NCBI GenBank assembly: GCA_028284885.1
Contig: JANQQW010000356.1
Coordinates: 1-53,406 of the forward strand
Origin: Planctomycetaceae bacterium
Lineage (GTDB): Bacteria; Planctomycetota; Planctomycetia; Planctomycetales; Planctomycetaceae
Length of the DNA: 53,406 nucleotides
Direction: 5' to 3'
The notes below the pieces were generated by a model. It had not been told where the DNA came from and searched no databases. It was given only the letters and a program-made list of their open reading frames with translations. Numbering within the stretch: the stretch's first letter is position 1; each line of letters starts with the position of its first letter. Of this stretch, positions 18,899 to 51,433 are shown piece after piece. A program made the position numbers and the translations under genes.

Positions 18899-18936
18899 CT
18901 GCGTTGCCACGCAACGCAGTCAGCACGCGGTCGACG
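18899..18936 (+). repeat. family B palindromic repeat, solo copy
   Basis: Core palindrome ctgcgttgc-cac-gcaacgcag at 18899-18919, a 9-bp perfect stem with a 3-base loop, plus 17 flanking bases shared with 19647-19663. Together they match the copy at 19626-19663 at 35 of 38 positions in direct orientation. Confidence 0.75.
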
Positions 18937-19625: not shown

Positions 19626-19761
19626 CTGCGTTGCCACGCAACGCAGTCAACGCGCGGTGGACGCCATCAGTCGGTTCGAGTCATGAGTCCGGCTTCCGGG
19701 CGACGCTCCAAACCTCTCCGGACGACGGCCCCGCGCTCGACTGCGTTGCGTGGCAACGCAG
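19626..19761. repeat. family B palindrome pair in inverted orientation (REPIN-like)
   Basis: Two 21-base palindromes, 19626-19646 (loop cac) and 19741-19761 (loop gtg), face each other across 94 bases. The second ends two bases before an ATG in the aroE frame. The pair structure resembles REPINs, which are inverted pairs of repetitive extragenic palindromes. Confidence 0.75.
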
Positions 19762-24975: not shown

Positions 24976-25992
24976 TCACGGCGACTCCGACTCGTCGACG
25001 GGAGCGTGCAGGAGGAGATAGAACTCGAGGTCCCGGTAGGTGTCGACGTCGGGATAGCCGTCGCACGTCGGCGAGAGGGCGTATCGCGCCTCGCCGGTCC
25101 CGAAGATCGACTCGTCCCGCAGCCTCCTCAGGGTGTCGGGGTCGGACGGCGGCGTCGGGCCGGGCACCATCCGCGGCGGGGTCGCCCCGTTCCCCTCACG
25201 CCGAAGTCCCCACCCGCCGCCGTAGTTGTCCAGGTCGTCGAACAGGGCGGGCGGTTTCGGCGAACCGGCGTTGTTCGCGTTGGCCAGCGTGAAGTTGCGG
25301 TCCTTTCCGGGCGAGACGAACCCCACCACGAACGCGTACCGCCGTCCCCGTTCCAGCACCAGTTCGTCGTCGCCGGAGAGGTCCCACTTTAGGTAGGTCA
25401 GCTTGCCCGCCTTCTCGGAGGCGAGGTCGGGCAGTCGGCCGCCGCGGGCCACGCGGAGCGGTTCGTAGGTCACGCCGGTGACGAAGTCGTCGCAGCGGTG
25501 GTTGGTGGAGAAGCCGTGGGTCGCCTTCGTTCCGGGCGGGGTGCCGTTGTCGTCGATCCTCGGCGTGCCCCGGACCTCGAAGAACTGGACGAAGACCTCC
25601 GCCCCGGCCGACCCGTCCTGGAAGGCGAGCGTGTCGTTCCCGGTCCGCAGCACGATCGCGTCGAGCCGCCCGTCCCGCGGGGCCGTGAAGACCTGGCCGA
25701 GATCGCGCGCTCGCCGGAAGTACCCCTTGTCCTTCCAGACGAGCGGCGACTGGTTCCGCACCGAGGTGTTCCCGCCGAGGTTCGCCTTGAGCTGTCTGAC
25801 CGCCACGCGGTCGGCGTCCTCGCCGAGCACCGCCCGCACCCGCTCCCACTTCCTCGGCGTTCCCCGGGCGTCGTCCTTCGCCGGGAGTTCGGTGGCCCGC
25901 CCGAGGCTGGTGACCACGAGCTCCCCGCGTGCCGTGGGGAGGACGAGGAACGGCGAGAGAACACCGAGCAACAGGGCCGAGCGTGGAGACAT
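24976..25992 (-). CDS. Secreted hypothetical protein
   Basis: The protein has 338 residues with a signal peptide of about 23 residues ending 'LPTARG'. The mature part appears beta-rich: 'LGQVFTAPRDGRLDAIVLRT' and 'LVLERGRRYAFVVGFVSPG' suggest a jelly-roll or carbohydrate-binding-like fold in which the text 'AFVVGF' forms a core strand. It contains no catalytic motif that I recognise. It starts 79 bases from the divergent UbiA gene and heads a possible three-gene minus-strand operon with the two following genes. Confidence 0.7.
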   Translation of the reverse strand: MSPRSALLLGVLSPFLVLPTARGELVVTSLGRATELPAKDDARGTPRKWERVRAVLGEDADRVAVRQLKANLGGNTSVRNQSPLVWKDKGYFRRARDLGQVFTAPRDGRLDAIVLRTGNDTLAFQDGSAGAEVFVQFFEVRGTPRIDDNGTPPGTKATHGFSTNHRCDDFVTGVTYEPLRVARGGRLPDLASEKAGKLTYLKWDLSGDDELVLERGRRYAFVVGFVSPGKDRNFTLANANNAGSPKPPALFDDLDNYGGGWGLRREGNGATPPRMVPGPTPPSDPDTLRRLRDESIFGTGEARYALSPTCDGYPDVDTYRDLEFYLLLHAPVDESESP

Positions 25993-26071
25993 GGCGGCGA
26001 TCCGGCGGGCGAGTGGGTCGTGGTGCGAGTTCTCCCTAGAATGTGCCGCGTCCAGTCCACGGCGACAACCG

Positions 26072-26953
26072 ATGCTCCAACGACTCCGCGATCTCCTCGG
26101 GCTGATTCGCTTCAGTCACACCGTCTTCGCCCTGCCGTTCGCGATGGCGTCGGCCGTGCTCGCGTGGCGGGAGGTGCCGTTCCGGTGGGAGCACCTCGGC
26201 GGCCTGCTGCTCTGCATGGTCTTCGCCCGCTCGGCCGCCATGGCCTTCAACCGACTCGTCGACCGCCGGATCGACGCCGACAACCCCCGCACGGCCGGGC
26301 GGCACATCCCGGCCGGCATCCTCTCGGTCGGCACGGTCACCGCCTTCACGCTCGTCTGCAGCCTGGGCTTCGTCGCCTCCACCCTGCTGTTCCTGCCGAA
26401 CGTCTGGCCGGTGGTCCTCTCCGTGCCGGTGCTCGCGTTCCTGCTGGGATACTCGTACGCGAAGCGGTTCACGTCGTGGTGCCACTACTGGCTGGCGGCG
26501 GCGCTGATGCTCTCGCCGGTCGCCGCGTGGATCGCGTTGACCGGCGGCCTCGCGTGGCCGCCCGTGCTGCTGGCGGCCGTCGTCTTCTTCTGGGTCGGCG
26601 GGTTCGACGTCCTCTACGCCTGCCAGGACGTCGACTTCGACCGCGAGAAGGGCCTGTTCAGCCTGCCCAGGTGGCTCGGCGTCCCCGGCGCACTGCGGCT
26701 GGCGATGGTCAGCCACCTGCTGGTCGTCGCCTGCCTCGTCGGCCTGTGGTGGGCGGCCGACCTCGGCGTCGTGTTCCTGATCGGTACGGGCGTCGTCGCC
26801 GCGCTGCTGGTCTACGAACACGCCCTCGTCCGCCCCGACGACCTCACGCGCGTCAACGTCGCCTTCTTCCAGGTGAACGCCGTCATCGGCCTCGGCCTGT
26901 TCGCCGTGACGTGTCTGGACGTCTGGCTGCGGACGGCTGCCGAGAACTCGTAG
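26072..26953 (+). CDS. UbiA-family prenyltransferase (MqnP/UbiA-like)
   Basis: The protein has 293 residues with eight to nine hydrophobic helices. The two Asp-rich motifs of the UbiA superfamily are present: 'NRLVDRRIDADNPRT' near residue 67 and 'DVDFDREKGLFSLP' near residue 188. It attaches a polyprenyl chain to an aromatic acceptor, either 4-hydroxybenzoate or the menaquinone futalosine-pathway precursor. The form without a partner gene and its close resemblance to MqnP-type sequences favour menaquinone synthesis, but this is not decisive. TAGAAT at 26037-26042 may be its -10 box. Confidence 0.87.
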   Translation: MLQRLRDLLGLIRFSHTVFALPFAMASAVLAWREVPFRWEHLGGLLLCMVFARSAAMAFNRLVDRRIDADNPRTAGRHIPAGILSVGTVTAFTLVCSLGFVASTLLFLPNVWPVVLSVPVLAFLLGYSYAKRFTSWCHYWLAAALMLSPVAAWIALTGGLAWPPVLLAAVVFFWVGGFDVLYACQDVDFDREKGLFSLPRWLGVPGALRLAMVSHLLVVACLVGLWWAADLGVVFLIGTGVVAALLVYEHALVRPDDLTRVNVAFFQVNAVIGLGLFAVTCLDVWLRTAAENS

Positions 26954-27000: not shown

Positions 27001-27100
27001 GGCGAGCGGGAGGTGTGAGCCTCCCGGTTACGCGTCCCGACGAGTGACGGGGCTCTGCTTCGATCACCCGTAACCGGCCGGCTGACACCGGCCGCTCGCC
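27001..27100. repeat. family A double-hairpin repeat, copy 1
   Basis: Inverted pair of hairpins. The left arm 27001-27034 has stem gggagg/cctccc around tgtgag; the right arm 27067-27100 (complement) has stem ggccgg/ccggcc around tgtcag. Both arms share ggcgagcg before the stem and ggttacg after it. It lies 47 bases after the UbiA gene and, with the next repeat, fills the convergent gap before the DUF1501 gene. Confidence 0.8.
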
Positions 27101-27152
27101 CGTCGTCACAAGGCGGCGCGAAGTCAGGTCGGGTCGCGGGGCAGACGCAACG

Positions 27153-27221
27153 GACCAGCCGCGACCGTGAGGGAGCGTTCGGGACCGGCGCTCACTCGCT
27201 CCCTGACGGTCGCGGCTGGTC
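27153..27221. repeat. family C long hairpin
   Basis: Arms 27153-27177 and 27197-27221 pair at 24 of 25 positions across a 19-base loop. The right arm shares 17 identical bases with 2781-2797. It sits in the convergent space between the UbiA gene and the DUF1501 gene and could act as a two-way terminator, though no T-run follows. Confidence 0.75.
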
Positions 27222-27256
27222 GTCCGACGTCTCGCGACTCCTGCAGATCAACGACC

Positions 27257-28666
27257 TCACCCCACGATCTTCTCGTACGGTTCACCCTCGTTGAGCGTCG
27301 GCCTCTCCGGGCGGCCCTTGTACTGGTACACCAAGTCCATGTGGCCGAGGCCGAGGAGGTGTAGGATGGTCGCGTGGACGTCGTGGACGTGCAGCTTGTC
27401 CTCGACGGCCCGCAGGCCGAGGTCGTCGGTCTTGCCGATGACCCGGCCCCCCTTCACGCCGCCGCCCGCCATCCAGATGGTGAAGCCGTGCACGTTGTGG
27501 TCGCGGCCGTTTCCCTTCTCGCTCATCGGCGTGCGGCCGAACTCGCCCCCCCAGACGACGAGCGTGTCCTCCAGCAAGCCCCGCTGCTTCAGATCCTTCA
27601 ACAGCCCGGCGACCGGCTTGTCGCTCTGACGGCAGACCTTGGCGTGGTTTCCCTCGATGTTCGAGTGCGAGTCCCACTTGCTGCCAGCCCCGTGGTAGCA
27701 CTGCACGAAGCGGACACCCCGTTCGACGAGCCGCCGGGCCAGCAGCAGCGTCTTGCCGTACGGGGCACACTGTTCGTCGTCGAGTCCGTACAGCGACTGC
27801 GTCTCCTTCGACTCGCTGGCGAGGTCGACGGCCTCCGGGGCGGTCGCCTGCATGCGGTAGGCGAGTTCGTAGCTCTTGATGCGGGCGTCGAGTTCGGTCT
27901 GCCAGGCACGGTCCTCGGCGTGCCGGCCGTTGAGGTACGACAGCAGGTCGAGCTTCCCCCGTTGCCGGTCGGGCGTGATCTCGCCGGGCGGATTCAGGTT
28001 CGCGATGGGGGCGCCCGTCGGGGAGAAGGGCGTTCCCTGGTACAGGGCCGGCATGAAGCCGGGGCCCCAGTTGCGGGGGCCGTTCACGATCTGCGTCGGC
28101 TTGTCCTGCATGACGACGAACGCCGGCAGGTTCGTGTTCTCCGTGCCGAGGCCGTACGTCACCCACGACCCGAGCGACGGCCGGCCGGCGAGCGGCGTGC
28201 CCGTGTTCATCTCGCAGACGCCGCCCGCGTGGTTGATGCCGTCCGTCTGGCAGCTGCGGAGGACGGCGATGTCGTCGACGCACTCGGCGATGTGCGGCAA
28301 CCAGTCGGAGACCCACAGCCCGCTCTCGCCGTGCCGGGCCCACTTCCGCTTCGAGCCGAGCAGCGGGGCGTTCGACTCGCCCATCGGCGTGATGATCGTC
28401 CCGAACGACTCCGGCAACGGCTTGCCCGAAAGCTCGTTCAGCAGCGGCTTCGGGTCGAACGTGTCCATCTGGCTGGGCCCGCCCTCCATGAAGCACCAGA
28501 TGACGGACTTCGCCCGCGGCGGGTGATGCGGGTCCTTCGCCGCGAGCGGGTTGTCGCTCGTCGACGGAGCCGCCGTGGCGGCCTGGTTCGTCATCCACGT
28601 GAGCGCCGCGGCCCCGAGTCCGGAGCCGGCGGTCGAGAGCATGTGACGGCGGTTGAGGTGTTGCAT
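27257..28666 (-). CDS. DUF1501 domain-containing secreted protein
   Basis: The protein has 469 residues from the ATG at 28666. The N-terminus 'NRRHMLSTAGSGLGAAAL' is a twin-arginine-type leader. DUF1501 signatures are 'SVIWCFMEGGPSQMDTFDPK', 'GPGFMPALYQGT', 'VVWGGEFGRTP' and 'DHNVHGFTIWMAGGGVKGG', placing it in the alkaline-phosphatase/sulfatase-like fold. In planctomycetes it is almost always paired with a DUF1549/DUF1553 protein, as here. Their joint function is unproven; polysaccharide use is often suggested. The two genes are separated by a family B repeat pair. Confidence 0.9.
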   Translation of the reverse strand: MQHLNRRHMLSTAGSGLGAAALTWMTNQAATAAPSTSDNPLAAKDPHHPPRAKSVIWCFMEGGPSQMDTFDPKPLLNELSGKPLPESFGTIITPMGESNAPLLGSKRKWARHGESGLWVSDWLPHIAECVDDIAVLRSCQTDGINHAGGVCEMNTGTPLAGRPSLGSWVTYGLGTENTNLPAFVVMQDKPTQIVNGPRNWGPGFMPALYQGTPFSPTGAPIANLNPPGEITPDRQRGKLDLLSYLNGRHAEDRAWQTELDARIKSYELAYRMQATAPEAVDLASESKETQSLYGLDDEQCAPYGKTLLLARRLVERGVRFVQCYHGAGSKWDSHSNIEGNHAKVCRQSDKPVAGLLKDLKQRGLLEDTLVVWGGEFGRTPMSEKGNGRDHNVHGFTIWMAGGGVKGGRVIGKTDDLGLRAVEDKLHVHDVHATILHLLGLGHMDLVYQYKGRPERPTLNEGEPYEKIVG

Positions 28667-28682
28667 GGTCTCACTCCACAGT

Positions 28683-28794
28683 TGCACTGCCACGCAGTGC
28701 AGACGAAGTCTGGTTGTGTTCCAAATGTCTCGACGGCGACGTCCGTCCGCGTTCGACGATCGCTCGACCGCGACTGCACTGCGTGGCCGTGCAG
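28683..28794. repeat. family B palindrome pair inside an operon spacer
   Basis: Palindromes 28683-28701 (tgcactgc-cac-gcagtgca) and 28774-28794 (ctgcactgc-gtg-gccgtgcag, one mismatch) face each other. They share the loop and outer bases with the copies near 19 kb but differ in the stem middle with matching changes on both sides. They fill the spacer between the DUF1549/1553 and DUF1501 genes. Confidence 0.7.
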
Positions 28795-33811: not shown

Positions 33812-33831
33812 TCGAGTCGTGACGACCACCA

Positions 33832-33870
33832 GCCGGGCCGTTCTCGCGAACGGTCCGGCCTTCTTATTCT
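33832..33870 (+). terminator. candidate intrinsic terminator after the sulfatase gene
   Basis: An 11-bp stem (33832-33842 with 33849-33859, one G-T pair) around ctcgcg, then cttcttattct. It is one of very few T-rich tails in the window. Confidence 0.6.
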
Positions 33871-33890
33871 CCCGAACGCAGGACGTCGAA

Positions 33891-34877
<987 letters not shown>

Positions 34878-34880
34878 CAT

Positions 34881-34981
34881 GGCGAGCGGCCGGTGTCAGC
34901 CGGCCGGTTACGCGTTCCATCCCGTTCGACGCCGACCCCGCGTGCACCGCGTAACCGGGGGGCTGACACCCCCCGCTCGCC
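34881..34981. repeat. family A double-hairpin repeat, copy 2
   Basis: Left arm 34881-34914 with stem ggccgg/ccggcc; right arm 34948-34981 (complement) with stem gggggg/cccccc, both around tgtcag. It occupies nearly the whole convergent gap between the HAD and aldolase genes, starting 3 bases after one stop and ending 21 bases before the other. Confidence 0.85.
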
Positions 34982-35002: not shown

Positions 35003-36034
<1,032 letters not shown>

Positions 36035-47521: not shown

Positions 47522-48517
47522 GTGCCGGCCAATCTCACGCCGCAGTATCGCAAGGCCGAGCGGGGCTTCCGGCGGGCGCAGTCGGCGGCGGAGCGGCTCG
47601 CGTGTCTCGAGGAGATGCTGCGGCTGATCCCCAAGCACAAGGGGACCGACCATCTGCAGGGGCACATCAAGGCGAAGCTGAGCGAGACGCGGCGGGAGGC
47701 GGAGGCCGAGCGGAAGGCGGCCAAGAAGGGGGGGCGGACGTTCCGCTTCCCCAGGCAGGGGGCCGGGACCGTGCTGCTGCTGGGGGGGCCGAACGCCGGG
47801 AAGAGCCGGCTGCTGGCCGAGCTGACCGACGCCCGGCCGACCGTGGCCGAGTACCCGTTCTCCACGCTGGAGCCGTTGCCGGGGATGATGGCGTGGGAGG
47901 ACGTGCGGGTGCAGCTGGTCGACGTGCCGCCCGTGACGGAGACGCACTTCGAGCCGTACGTGCTGAACCTCGTCCGCGCGGCCGACGGCGTGCTGCTCTG
48001 CTTCGACGGCAGCAGCGACGACGCCCCGGAGCAGACGCTGGAGGTGGTCCGCCAACTCGAGTCCCGCCGCACCCGCCTCTCCGACCGCAGCGGCTTCGAC
48101 GACGAGGAGTTCTCGGTCGTCCACGTGCGCACGACGCTCGTCGTCACGCGGTCGAACGACCCGGACGTCGAGACGCGGCTCGAGTTCCTGCGTGAACTCG
48201 GCGGGCCGGACCTGCCGCTCGTGCGAGTCGACGCCGACGACGCCGGATCGCTCGACCCGTTGCGGGCGGCGGCGTTCGACCTGCTGGGGCTGATTCGCGT
48301 CTACACGAAGCGGCCGGGGCAGGAGCCGGAGCGGGACTCGCCCTTCACGATTCCCGTCGGCGGCACCGTCGAGGACGTGGCCCACGAGGTGCACGACGAC
48401 GTGGCCGCGGCCTTGAAGCACGCCCGTGTGTGGGGCGACTCGGCCGACAGCGACGGGCAGGTGGTCGGCCGCGAGCACGTGCTGGCGGACGGGGACGTGG
48501 TCGAGCTCCATGTGTGA
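47522..48517 (+). CDS. Obg/DRG-like GTPase with C-terminal TGS domain
   Basis: The protein has 331 residues from the GTG at 47522. No Shine-Dalgarno is visible, but family members begin 'PANLTPQY' exactly there. A helical N-terminus (1-75) precedes the P-loop 'GGPNAGKS' (88-95). The G2/G3 region reads 'YPFSTLEPLPGMM' then 'VQLVDVPP', with DxxG lost. G4 is 'TRSND' instead of the usual NKxD, so nucleotide specificity is doubtful. The TGS domain ends in 'DGDVVELHV'. Upstream lies a C-rich repeat tract (47475-47520). Confidence 0.85.
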   Translation: MPANLTPQYRKAERGFRRAQSAAERLACLEEMLRLIPKHKGTDHLQGHIKAKLSETRREAEAERKAAKKGGRTFRFPRQGAGTVLLLGGPNAGKSRLLAELTDARPTVAEYPFSTLEPLPGMMAWEDVRVQLVDVPPVTETHFEPYVLNLVRAADGVLLCFDGSSDDAPEQTLEVVRQLESRRTRLSDRSGFDDEEFSVVHVRTTLVVTRSNDPDVETRLEFLRELGGPDLPLVRVDADDAGSLDPLRAAAFDLLGLIRVYTKRPGQEPERDSPFTIPVGGTVEDVAHEVHDDVAAALKHARVWGDSADSDGQVVGREHVLADGDVVELHV

Positions 48518-48558: not shown

Positions 48559-48615
48559 GTCCTGGCGGACCGGGACGTGGCGGAGCTGCACGTGTAAGTC
48601 GGCGAGCGGGGGGAT
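48559..48615 (+). pseudogene. duplicated 3' end of the TGS GTPase gene
   Basis: About 57 bases repeat 48479-48535 with an 80-base offset and roughly ten mismatches (about 83 percent). The copy would encode a second '...DRDVAELHV' ending with its own stop. It is not part of a longer gene and continues straight into family A repeat copy 3. Confidence 0.6.
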
Positions 48616-48701
48616 GTCAGCCCCCCGGTTACGCGTCGATCTTCGGCGACGCTGCGACGGGTGGGCACGCGTCACCGGCCGGCTGACACCGGCCGCTCGG
48701 C
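48601..48701. repeat. family A double-hairpin repeat, copy 3
   Basis: Left arm 48601-48635 has a gggggg/cccccc stem around an atgtcag loop; right arm 48668-48701 (complement) has ggccgg/ccggcc. The pair of different stem types is the same as in the other two copies. It lies between the GTPase gene and rsmH, here between codirectional genes. Confidence 0.85.
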
Positions 48702-49727: not shown

Positions 49728-51433
49728 GCGACGCCGACTTCGCGGAACGCGACTTCGCCGACCCGCACGACCAGCGGCCGAGACACGAAGAGACCGACGC
49801 GGCCGACTCGCGCGAGCGGGCCGAGGCGAAGTCGTCCAAGTCCGAGGAGCCCGACGACTGGGGCTTCTCCCGGGAGAAACGCGGCATGTCCACCGAGACC
49901 AAGATCGGCCTGACGCTCGTCGTGCTGTTGCTCGGCACGTTCGGGTTCGTCGTCTGGAAGAAGCTGCAGCAGCGGCAGACGACCATCGCCGCCACCGACT
50001 TCGCCGAGCACCCGGAGTCCCGGCCGGAACGTCGGGATCCCCCCGTCAACCGTCGGCCGAAGCCGCAGGAACGCCCGGAGGACGTCGTCCACGCGGACGC
50101 CTTCGAGGAGCCGACGCGCCGCGGCCAGGGTCGCCACGACGACGGCTGGGCCGAGATCCAGCCCGTCTCCCGCGAGACGCCCCGGCACGACGACCCGTTC
50201 GCCGAGTTGGACCCGGAGAACTTCCGCAACCACGAGGTGCAGAAGCCCCCGGCCGAGGGACACCGCGGGGTCGAGGAACCGGCCTTCGCCGACCTGTTCG
50301 AGCCCGACCCGAGGCAACCGGCCACCGAGCCGAAGCCCGAGGAGTGCCCGCCCGACGGAGGGCTCGCCGAGTACGAGTTCGCGGACGACTTCGACTTCGG
50401 GGCAAGTGAACAACACCGGCCGCGGAACCAGCAACCGCGTGACGACTTCGGCCGACGCGACTTCGGCCGACGCGACTTCGGACGCGACGACTTCGGACGT
50501 GACGACTTCGGCCGACGCGACGAACGCGTCGTCGACGCGTGGGACCAGGAGCCGGGACGACTGGAGATCGCCGAGTTCGACGACCCGCGGATCCGTCAGA
50601 CGCGCGGCGTGGCCGCGACGAACGACGCCGGCTGGGACGACTTCGAGCCCGTTCAGCAGCGGCAGCAGCCACGGCCGCGGCAGGACGTCGCCCAGCGGCA
50701 GCCGGCCGAGGCGGGCTGGGACGACTTCGAGACCTTCGAGCCGGTCGACGCCCACCCGCGGAACCCGCGACAGGATCCCCGTCGGGACGAGTTCCGCCAG
50801 GACCAGCCGAGGCAGCAGGACTTCCGCCAGGACGCCCGCCGCGACGACTTCGGCCGTGACGCGTTCGAGCAGCACCCCACCCAACGGCACCAGCAGACGA
50901 ACTGGAACGACGCCCCGCCCGCCGAACACCAGGCGTGCGAGGACCCCACGGCACCGCCCGGCACGACCGTGCACGAGGTGGAGGCGGGGGACAGCTACTG
51001 GACCATCAGCCGGGACGCGTACGACACGGCCAAGTACTTCTCGGCTCTCGCGAAGTTCAACGAGTACCGCATCGCGAACCCGAAGCACATGCGGCCCGGG
51101 ATGCTCGTCCTCTGCCCGCCGACCGCGTACCTGCACCAGCGGTACCCCAAGCTGTGCGGCCCGGGCGAGGACGCGAAGGCCTGCCCGCACGAGAACCCCG
51201 AAGGCTTCTTCGTCGACGCGGACGGCCGGCCCAAGTACCGCGTGGGCGAGGAGGACACGCTCTCCGAGATCGCCCACGTCCACCTCGGCCGGGGCTCGCG
51301 GTGGGTCCAGATCTTCGAGCTGAACCGCGGACGGCTGCGGACGCCGGACACCCTCCCACTCGGAACGGTGCTCGACCTCCCCGCCGACGCCAGCAGCGTT
51401 CGACTGGTCGGAGGGACGCGAACCTACCGATGA
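49625..51433 (+). CDS. Membrane protein with repeat-rich linker and two LysM-type domains
   Basis: The protein has 602 residues from the ATG at 49625, overlapping rsmH by 103 bases; an ATG at 49886 would remove the overlap. A cytoplasmic charged N-terminus precedes one helix (about 94-111, 'LTLVVLLLGTFGFVVW'). A long linker rich in Asp, Arg, Gln and Phe follows, including five (D/R)DFGR units (50441-50515, period 15 bases) and repeated 'WDDFE' motifs. The C-terminus has LysM-like modules 'HEVEAGDSYWTISR' and 'YRVGEEDTLSEIAHVHLG', which bind peptidoglycan. It probably tethers the membrane to the wall within a division locus. Confidence 0.78.
   Translation: MGKPDQQTDHGHTGGEPGQPAGPFGEAASGDTPVGDADFAERDFADPHDQRPRHEETDAADSRERAEAKSSKSEEPDDWGFSREKRGMSTETKIGLTLVVLLLGTFGFVVWKKLQQRQTTIAATDFAEHPESRPERRDPPVNRRPKPQERPEDVVHADAFEEPTRRGQGRHDDGWAEIQPVSRETPRHDDPFAELDPENFRNHEVQKPPAEGHRGVEEPAFADLFEPDPRQPATEPKPEECPPDGGLAEYEFADDFDFGASEQHRPRNQQPRDDFGRRDFGRRDFGRDDFGRDDFGRRDERVVDAWDQEPGRLEIAEFDDPRIRQTRGVAATNDAGWDDFEPVQQRQQPRPRQDVAQRQPAEAGWDDFETFEPVDAHPRNPRQDPRRDEFRQDQPRQQDFRQDARRDDFGRDAFEQHPTQRHQQTNWNDAPPAEHQACEDPTAPPGTTVHEVEAGDSYWTISRDAYDTAKYFSALAKFNEYRIANPKHMRPGMLVLCPPTAYLHQRYPKLCGPGEDAKACPHENPEGFFVDADGRPKYRVGEEDTLSEIAHVHLGRGSRWVQIFELNRGRLRTPDTLPLGTVLDLPADASSVRLVGGTRTYR

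Follow-up and report, generated by a model that had tools for sequence, protein, structure and literature searches.

A REPIN-like family of paired hairpins and its adjoining RAYT gene in a Planctomycetaceae genome

The three double-hairpin repeats of the window, as we call the whole 53,406-nucleotide stretch analysed here (contig C317 of a 6.47 Mb planctomycete assembly in 399 contigs), belong, with a probability that we put at roughly 0.9, to a family of REPINs (family A). These are non-autonomous elements of ~100 bp made of two inverted REP hairpins, which would be recognised as folded single-stranded DNA by the genome's own RAYT, encoded on contig C380. By analogy with RAYTs studied elsewhere, the REPINs would be bound, cleaved and very probably moved by this single-strand transposase. 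The protein lies below the equivalog cut-off, it has the motif Y---Q and not Y----Q, and its repeats carry CGAG and not GTAG or CnGA; the system is therefore regarded as a variant of the known RAYT-REPIN type and not as a new type. The genome offers element and enzyme together, complete and countable, and some 90 planctomycete loci serve for comparison.

Copies of the element and their anatomy

The preliminary description placed three elements of 100-101 bp in the window, and their coordinates were borne out (Table 1). Each follows the plan GGCGAG-C-[6-bp stem]-T-GTSA-G-[stem']-G-GTTACG, after which come a spacer and the same unit inverted. With the closing C-G pair counted the hairpin stem is 7 bp, and the anatomy of family A is a CGAG foot, a 7-bp stem of free sequence, a GTNA loop, a GGTTACG tail and a spacer of fixed length. 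The most suitable reading of the loop is a GTNA tetraloop whose closing pair is T-G in the source genome and C-G in most relatives. All six arms in the window have self-complementary six-base stems, as had been proposed. The outer and inner bases described as constant are so in five of the six arms, but the right arm of copy 3 has GGTGACG instead of GGTTACG and CCGAGCGG instead of GGCGAGCGG. The left loop of that copy contains one extra A (GGGGGG-ATGTCAG-CCCCCC), and copy 3 is partly or slightly decayed.

Table 1. Positions of the family A elements and their neighbouring genes in the window
Feature	Coordinates	Strand	Description
REPIN copy 1	27001..27100	+	stems GGGAGG/GGCCGG; left arm of the G-run type with loop TGTGAG, right arm of the GGCCGG type with loop TGTCAG; 100.9 bits, covariance model R1
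REP arm 1 of copy 1	27001..27034	+	foot GGCGAG, 7-bp stem C+GGGAGG, loop T-GTGA-G, tail GGTTACGCG
REP arm 2 of copy 1	27067..27100	-	GGCGAG C GGCCGG TGTCAG CCGGCC GGTTACGGG
REPIN copy 2	34881..34981	-	stems GGCCGG/GGGGGG; left arm of the GGCCGG and right arm of the GGGGGG type; 106.6 bits
REPIN copy 3	48601..48701	+	stems GGGGGG/GGCCGG; left arm GGGGGG type, one inserted A in loop; right arm GGCCGG type, tail GGTGACG; 92.8 bits
Predicted protein-coding gene upstream of copy 1	25478..26953	+	codon-usage prediction
Predicted protein-coding gene convergent to copy 1	27257..28687	-	
HAD-type phosphatase gene, end 3 bp before copy 2	33819..34877	+	name by sequence inspection
Class II fructose-bisphosphate aldolase-like gene, convergent to copy 2	35003..36034	-	name by sequence inspection
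Predicted gene, end 83 bp before copy 3	47522..48517	+	

Searching the genome with the arm pattern and free stems gave 50 matches at up to two mismatches and none with the reversed control. A covariance model built from 23 elements, in a search of the kind that the preliminary description had proposed with the six arms, recovered 27 full elements at 50 bits or more (50-113 bits), nearly all of them doublets. On these two results the elements are not due to chance. The spacer is 34-36 nt long in every aligned copy with a pairwise identity of 42%, against 27% expected at random, and the bases immediately flanking the elements are random. Since the length of the spacer is fixed and its sequence nearly random, while copies share 90-91% identity in their arms, the conserved features are the two arms and the distance between them, that is, two inverted REPs at fixed spacing as in a REPIN. 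The exact family, defined by loop, tail and spacing, has 44 arms in the source genome and at most 11 one-mismatch look-alikes per genome in 169 other genomes of the same family; with the tail GGTTACG it is confined to the source genome.

Copies are many and mainly extragenic, 24 of 27 lying outside predicted genes. By gene context 14 are tandem, 5 convergent and 4 divergent, while 3 overlap a predicted frame and 1 lies at the edge of a contig; the first three proportions are close to the window's own gene order (24 tandem, 9 convergent, 10 divergent). The copies in the window had been described as following the stop of a plus-strand gene. This holds for all three, at 47, 3 and 83 bp, two of them in convergent gaps (copy 2 and the stop of the aldolase-like gene are 21 bp apart), but it is not general across the genome, and the setting of the window's three copies is unrepresentative.

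Folding of the arms and the unlike stems

Within the source genome 97.2% of the stem cells in the local hairpins are paired, and covariation scores 0.099, a value that none of 500 shuffles reached (mean 0.042). When the partner was slid by 1-3 columns pairing fell to 34-61%. Nine stem cells are doubly changed, most of them through one shared change (GGGAGG, in 6 copies), so that independent events within the genome are few. The cross-genome comparison is the stronger of the two. A pattern blind to complementarity supplied 75 distinct arms in 12 genomes, and 86% of their stem positions were Watson-Crick (93% with G-T) compared with 55% (maximum 62%) when the 3' halves were shuffled (0 of 2000), with compensated changes at all six stem positions. 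Selection on a folded single strand, as first suggested from the window, is thus supported within the genome and between genomes, each REP folding as a hairpin under constraint; the loss of complementarity at chance rate that would have spoken against it is not seen.

The long hairpin formed arm to arm has no covariation, and two columns per side are mismatched in 21-23 of the 23 copies. As the selected structure it was rejected by these pair counts. Mirror pairing in the spacer is weak (0.47, the best of seven registers, versus 0.40 shuffled).

The two arms of an element carry unlike stems. The pairing of one G-run stem with one GGCCGG stem noticed in the window generalises, all 23 aligned elements being heterotypic in stem class. 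Arms differing at no more than one stem position occur in 1 of 23 elements, while random pairing predicts 10.7 (5000 trials, minimum 3). A DNA energy model places the long fold below the clover by a mean of 10.8 kcal/mol in the real elements and by 25.8 kcal/mol with arms made alike; heterotypy costs the long hairpin ~15 kcal/mol relative to like arms. Among relatives, one genome (G061) is strictly heterotypic with other stems (9/9), whereas two of the same design, G104 (25/25) and G079, are strictly homotypic. As the design exists in homotypic form, heterotypy is not required; with both states found among relatives it is a lineage trait, attributable to a founder effect or to selection.

Selection for unlike stems could be added to the REPIN reading, in that it would keep the clover form usable by a RAYT dimer or would spare the element cruciform cleavage of the SbcCD type. 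The two-fold hypothesis was put forward in PMC3116915 (Figure S11) and the SbcCD idea in PMC3733652, where REP homodimers and heterodimers are already described and the heterodimers are said to have 'no obvious explanation'. We hold this addition to be rather doubtful. The complete heterotypy of the 23 elements, the scarcity of near-identical arms, an arm-to-arm fold mismatched at two positions per side in at least 21 of 23 copies, the reduced advantage of the long fold and the strict heterotypy of G061 argue for it. However, G104 and G079 are strictly homotypic, a single heterotypic founder would yield 23 of 23 by descent, and the long fold is lower in energy even in heterotypic elements. The strictly heterotypic and strictly homotypic lineages make the REP-heterodimer question directly testable.

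A wider proposal is that the planctomycete system forms a separate RAYT-REPIN branch with a CGAG foot, a GTNA loop, a Y---Q enzyme and free stems, in some lineages of which heterotypy is selected for a two-hairpin form used by the transposase. We offer it tentatively and would not expect it to hold; if true, the branch would be a natural test of the clover-versus-long-hairpin hypothesis.

The RAYT gene, its relatives and known systems

Pfam Y1_Tnp matches four places in the source genome. One of them (G000:C380:62988-63521), scoring above the Pfam cut-off, encodes a 178-aa HUH/Tyr protein with SNHVH (H102, H104), an invariant Y164 and WT. Family A REPINs stand on both sides of this gene, at 62873-62977 and 63522-63626; the upstream one ends ~10 bp before the ATG and the downstream one begins at the 3' end of the gene and is followed by a single arm. 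The RAYT-type transposase proposed as a test in the preliminary description is therefore present in the same genome between copies of the same repeat, and the REPIN-like reading wins over a terminator or stability role. The AlphaFold model of the protein (pLDDT 86) has the predicted fold of a Y1 transposase with HUH and Tyr. It superposes on IS200-type transposases of IS200/IS605 with Z 14.7 and 2.4 A for 106 residues, and on 4er8, the solved complex of the E. coli RAYT with its REP, with Z 10.9 and 2.9 A for 120 residues. The protein scores 39.5 bits against NCBI NF047646 (REP_Tyr_transpos), for which the cut-off is 80 bits. By predicted fold and by association the C380 protein is a RAYT outside this curated equivalog.

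The reading frame of the gene lacks a stop of its own and runs (L041:2983-4680; G000:C380:62982-64679) through the REPIN and the further REP arm into an epmA-like gene with a tRNA-synt_2 domain; given such a frame, this RAYT copy may be damaged. The stretch from the REPs to the conserved beginning of epmA showed no in-frame ATG, GTG or TTG; epmA may therefore begin within a REPIN or be made as a fusion.

A second RAYT paralogue (C208:3-464) is 60% identical, is cut by the contig end and has HVY in place of HVH. It adjoins a pair of REPs of a second family, which has the loop CGTSAG and the tail TGTT; an arm of this family, GGCGAGCGGGGGGCGTCAGCCCCCTGTT, overlaps the 5' end of the paralogue (L044:1-610); further copies of this family are found on C19, C91, C335 and C341. 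Each paralogue has one REP family of its own, which is typical of RAYTs (PMC6006769). Three arms of the second family (one at C91, two at C335; L225, L226) are followed ~60-70 bp on by a hairpin GCGGGCG-TCTC-GCCCGC and not by an inverted partner arm.

The RAYTs of E. coli, Stenotrophomonas and Marinomonas (PMC8266576), together with IS200/IS605, suggest how such elements would move: by recognition of the folded strand through loop and foot, tyrosine cleavage and joining, and the placing of copies in gaps. During a single-stranded phase, on the lagging-strand template or similar, each arm would form a hairpin of 7 bp topped by the GTNA loop. This hairpin would be bound via loop and stem by the RAYT, which is a single-strand endonuclease of the Y1/HUH type, with the CGAG at the foot of the hairpin serving as a guide, the presumed counterpart of E. 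coli GTAG and of the IS200/IS605 guide tetranucleotides. The catalytic Y164 and the HVH metal site (H102, H104) would cleave and rejoin the strand, and copies would accumulate in intergenic gaps. Sequence-specific loop contacts have been reported for RAYTs with perfect-palindrome REPs (PMC8266576), and these contacts agree with a stem that is free while loop and foot are fixed. A foot and loop that stay constant while the stem changes separate what the enzyme probably reads from what need only pair.

RAYT proteins were found in 27 of 59 genomes searched (same family and class, the source genome counted), and named relatives are almost all Planctomycetota. We scanned 93 RAYT loci for the loop YGTNAG on 5 bp or more of perfect stem, obtaining 116 hairpins against 2 with the reversed loop. 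Such hairpins occur at 2.1/kb up to 250 bp from the RAYT gene, at 0.32/kb between 250 and 500 bp and at ~0.03/kb (0-0.08/kb) beyond 500 bp, with 3 matches in all block-shuffled sequence. A hairpin with the strict loop and stem lies within 300 bp at only 28 of 65 close RAYT loci, and some others have different loops. Stems vary by locus (among them CCCCGAC, CACCGGG, CCGTGGA, CGGCGGG and CCCCCGA), while the foot retains ..AG, with CGAG as its commonest form. In many of 120 genomes of the same family GCGAGC-N6-YGTNAG is strongly enriched over its reversed control (315/21 in G079, 198/19 in G061 and 102/4 in G007). Two gene pairs flanking elements, HAD-aldolase and leuA-epmA, are adjacent in no relative examined, a set with no genome of the same genus, and so yield no empty site.

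Feet in the relatives are CGAG, TGAG, CCGAG and also CTGAG, with GTAG at one locus and in one stray match. At that locus, in a Phycisphaerales MAG (L153:2414-3217), some of the RAYT-flanking hairpins have a GTAG foot (CGTAG, also ATAG and TTAG) with the planctomycete GTNA loop. These hairpins may connect the GTAG REPs with the CGAG REPs.

The closest well-described elements are the REPINs and RAYTs of Pseudomonas fluorescens SBW25 (Bertels and Rainey 2011, PMC3116915). They too consist of two inverted conserved REPs, ~71 bp apart from first residue to first residue, with a variable spacer of kept length; they are extragenic, have one RAYT per REP family, and their single REPs are what remains of doublets. 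Family A differs in sequence, foot, stem and loop, and its RAYT belongs to a different clade. In SBW25 compensatory changes are reported along the long hairpin, whereas in family A they are found in the local hairpins only. Excision events are known in SBW25, while family A is known here from sequence alone.

Class 3 TnpA-Y1 proteins and their atypical hairpins (Quentin et al. 2018, PMC6006769) are also similar. Class 3 is a small uncharacterised group of 10 members, extended to 24, of 178 aa, mainly from Planctomycetes, with NHVH and W[TA], and the gene lies between multicopy hairpins without GTAG; no fold, pairing or covariation is given for these hairpins in the part of that paper drawn on here. 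The class 3 foot CnGA fits hairpins of some relatives (CCGAG, CTGAG) but not the GCGAG of the source genome. Of the class 3 motifs the C380 clade has NHVH and WT but not Y----Q (YV[VI]xEQ), having the one residue shorter Y---Q (YVEQQ, YVRNQ, YVRDQ).

E. coli BIMEs and the REPtron (Y, Z1 and Z2 REPs; TnpA-REP, 4er8) share inverted REP pairs of two subtypes, an HUH/Tyr enzyme and a tetranucleotide foot. However, the foot of E. coli REPs is GTAG and their stem is bulged, whereas family A has a perfect stem and a GTNA loop and is closer to the second REP group, that of perfect palindromes (PMC8266576). The foot in the source genome is CGAG and not the GT[AG]G of the canonical RAYT subclasses, nor the GTAG found in proteobacterial REPs. 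The GTAG- and CGTC-tagged REP dimers of PMC3733652, which mentions tagged families in Planctomycetes, likewise form head-to-head homodimers and heterodimers with spacers of 20-100 bp; the tag is CGAG in family A, TGAG in some relatives and GTAG at the Phycisphaerales locus.

Other roles considered and other repeats in the window

An element acting as RNA, its hairpins serving as transcription terminators or 3' mRNA stabilisers, would explain why all three window copies follow stop codons, two of them in convergent gaps, and such roles are reported for enterobacterial REPs (PMC3733652, PMC6006769). We judge it improbable, and the alternative raised in the preliminary description is unsupported. 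Copy 1, where terminators and promoters were searched for and nothing was found, has no T-run and no terminator-like site, no arm in the alignment is followed by a T-run as an intrinsic terminator would be, and the window has no Rfam match. Four of the 27 copies lie in divergent gaps, and the contexts of the copies (14/5/4) are close to the window's gene order (24/9/10). Foot, loop and tail are moreover conserved to the same degree as the stems, and the same element stands on both sides of a transposase gene. A secondary, exapted effect on some mRNAs may accompany the REPIN function. Chance palindromes or decayed insertion-sequence ends without function, to which the decayed arms of some copies (C62, C117:11560, C158) might point, deserve practically no credence, being refuted by the 50 matches against 0 in the control, an arm identity of ~0.90 beside a nearly random spacer, and the compensatory stem changes.

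The window contains repeats other than family A. A second hairpin family, CTGCGTTGC-CAC-GCAACGCAG, is present at 18899-18919, 19626-19646 and 19741-19761. It has 26 sites in the genome at up to two mismatches and none in the reversed control, often as inverted pairs ~110-130 bp apart, and some pairs join a CTGCG arm to a CCGCG arm, a compensated change. These hairpins are probably another REP family. Directly 3' of REPIN copy 1 lies a long imperfect inverted repeat at 27145-27225 (CAGCCGCGACCGTGAGGGAGCG ... CGCTCCCTGACGGTCGCGGCTG). Because similar hairpins (CCGCGACCGTGAGG) flank the RAYT of one relative (L080), this repeat may be a member of yet another REP family. Finally, 15-bp tandem-like coding repeats (CGACGCGACTTCGGC) are located at 50437-50536, inside a predicted gene.
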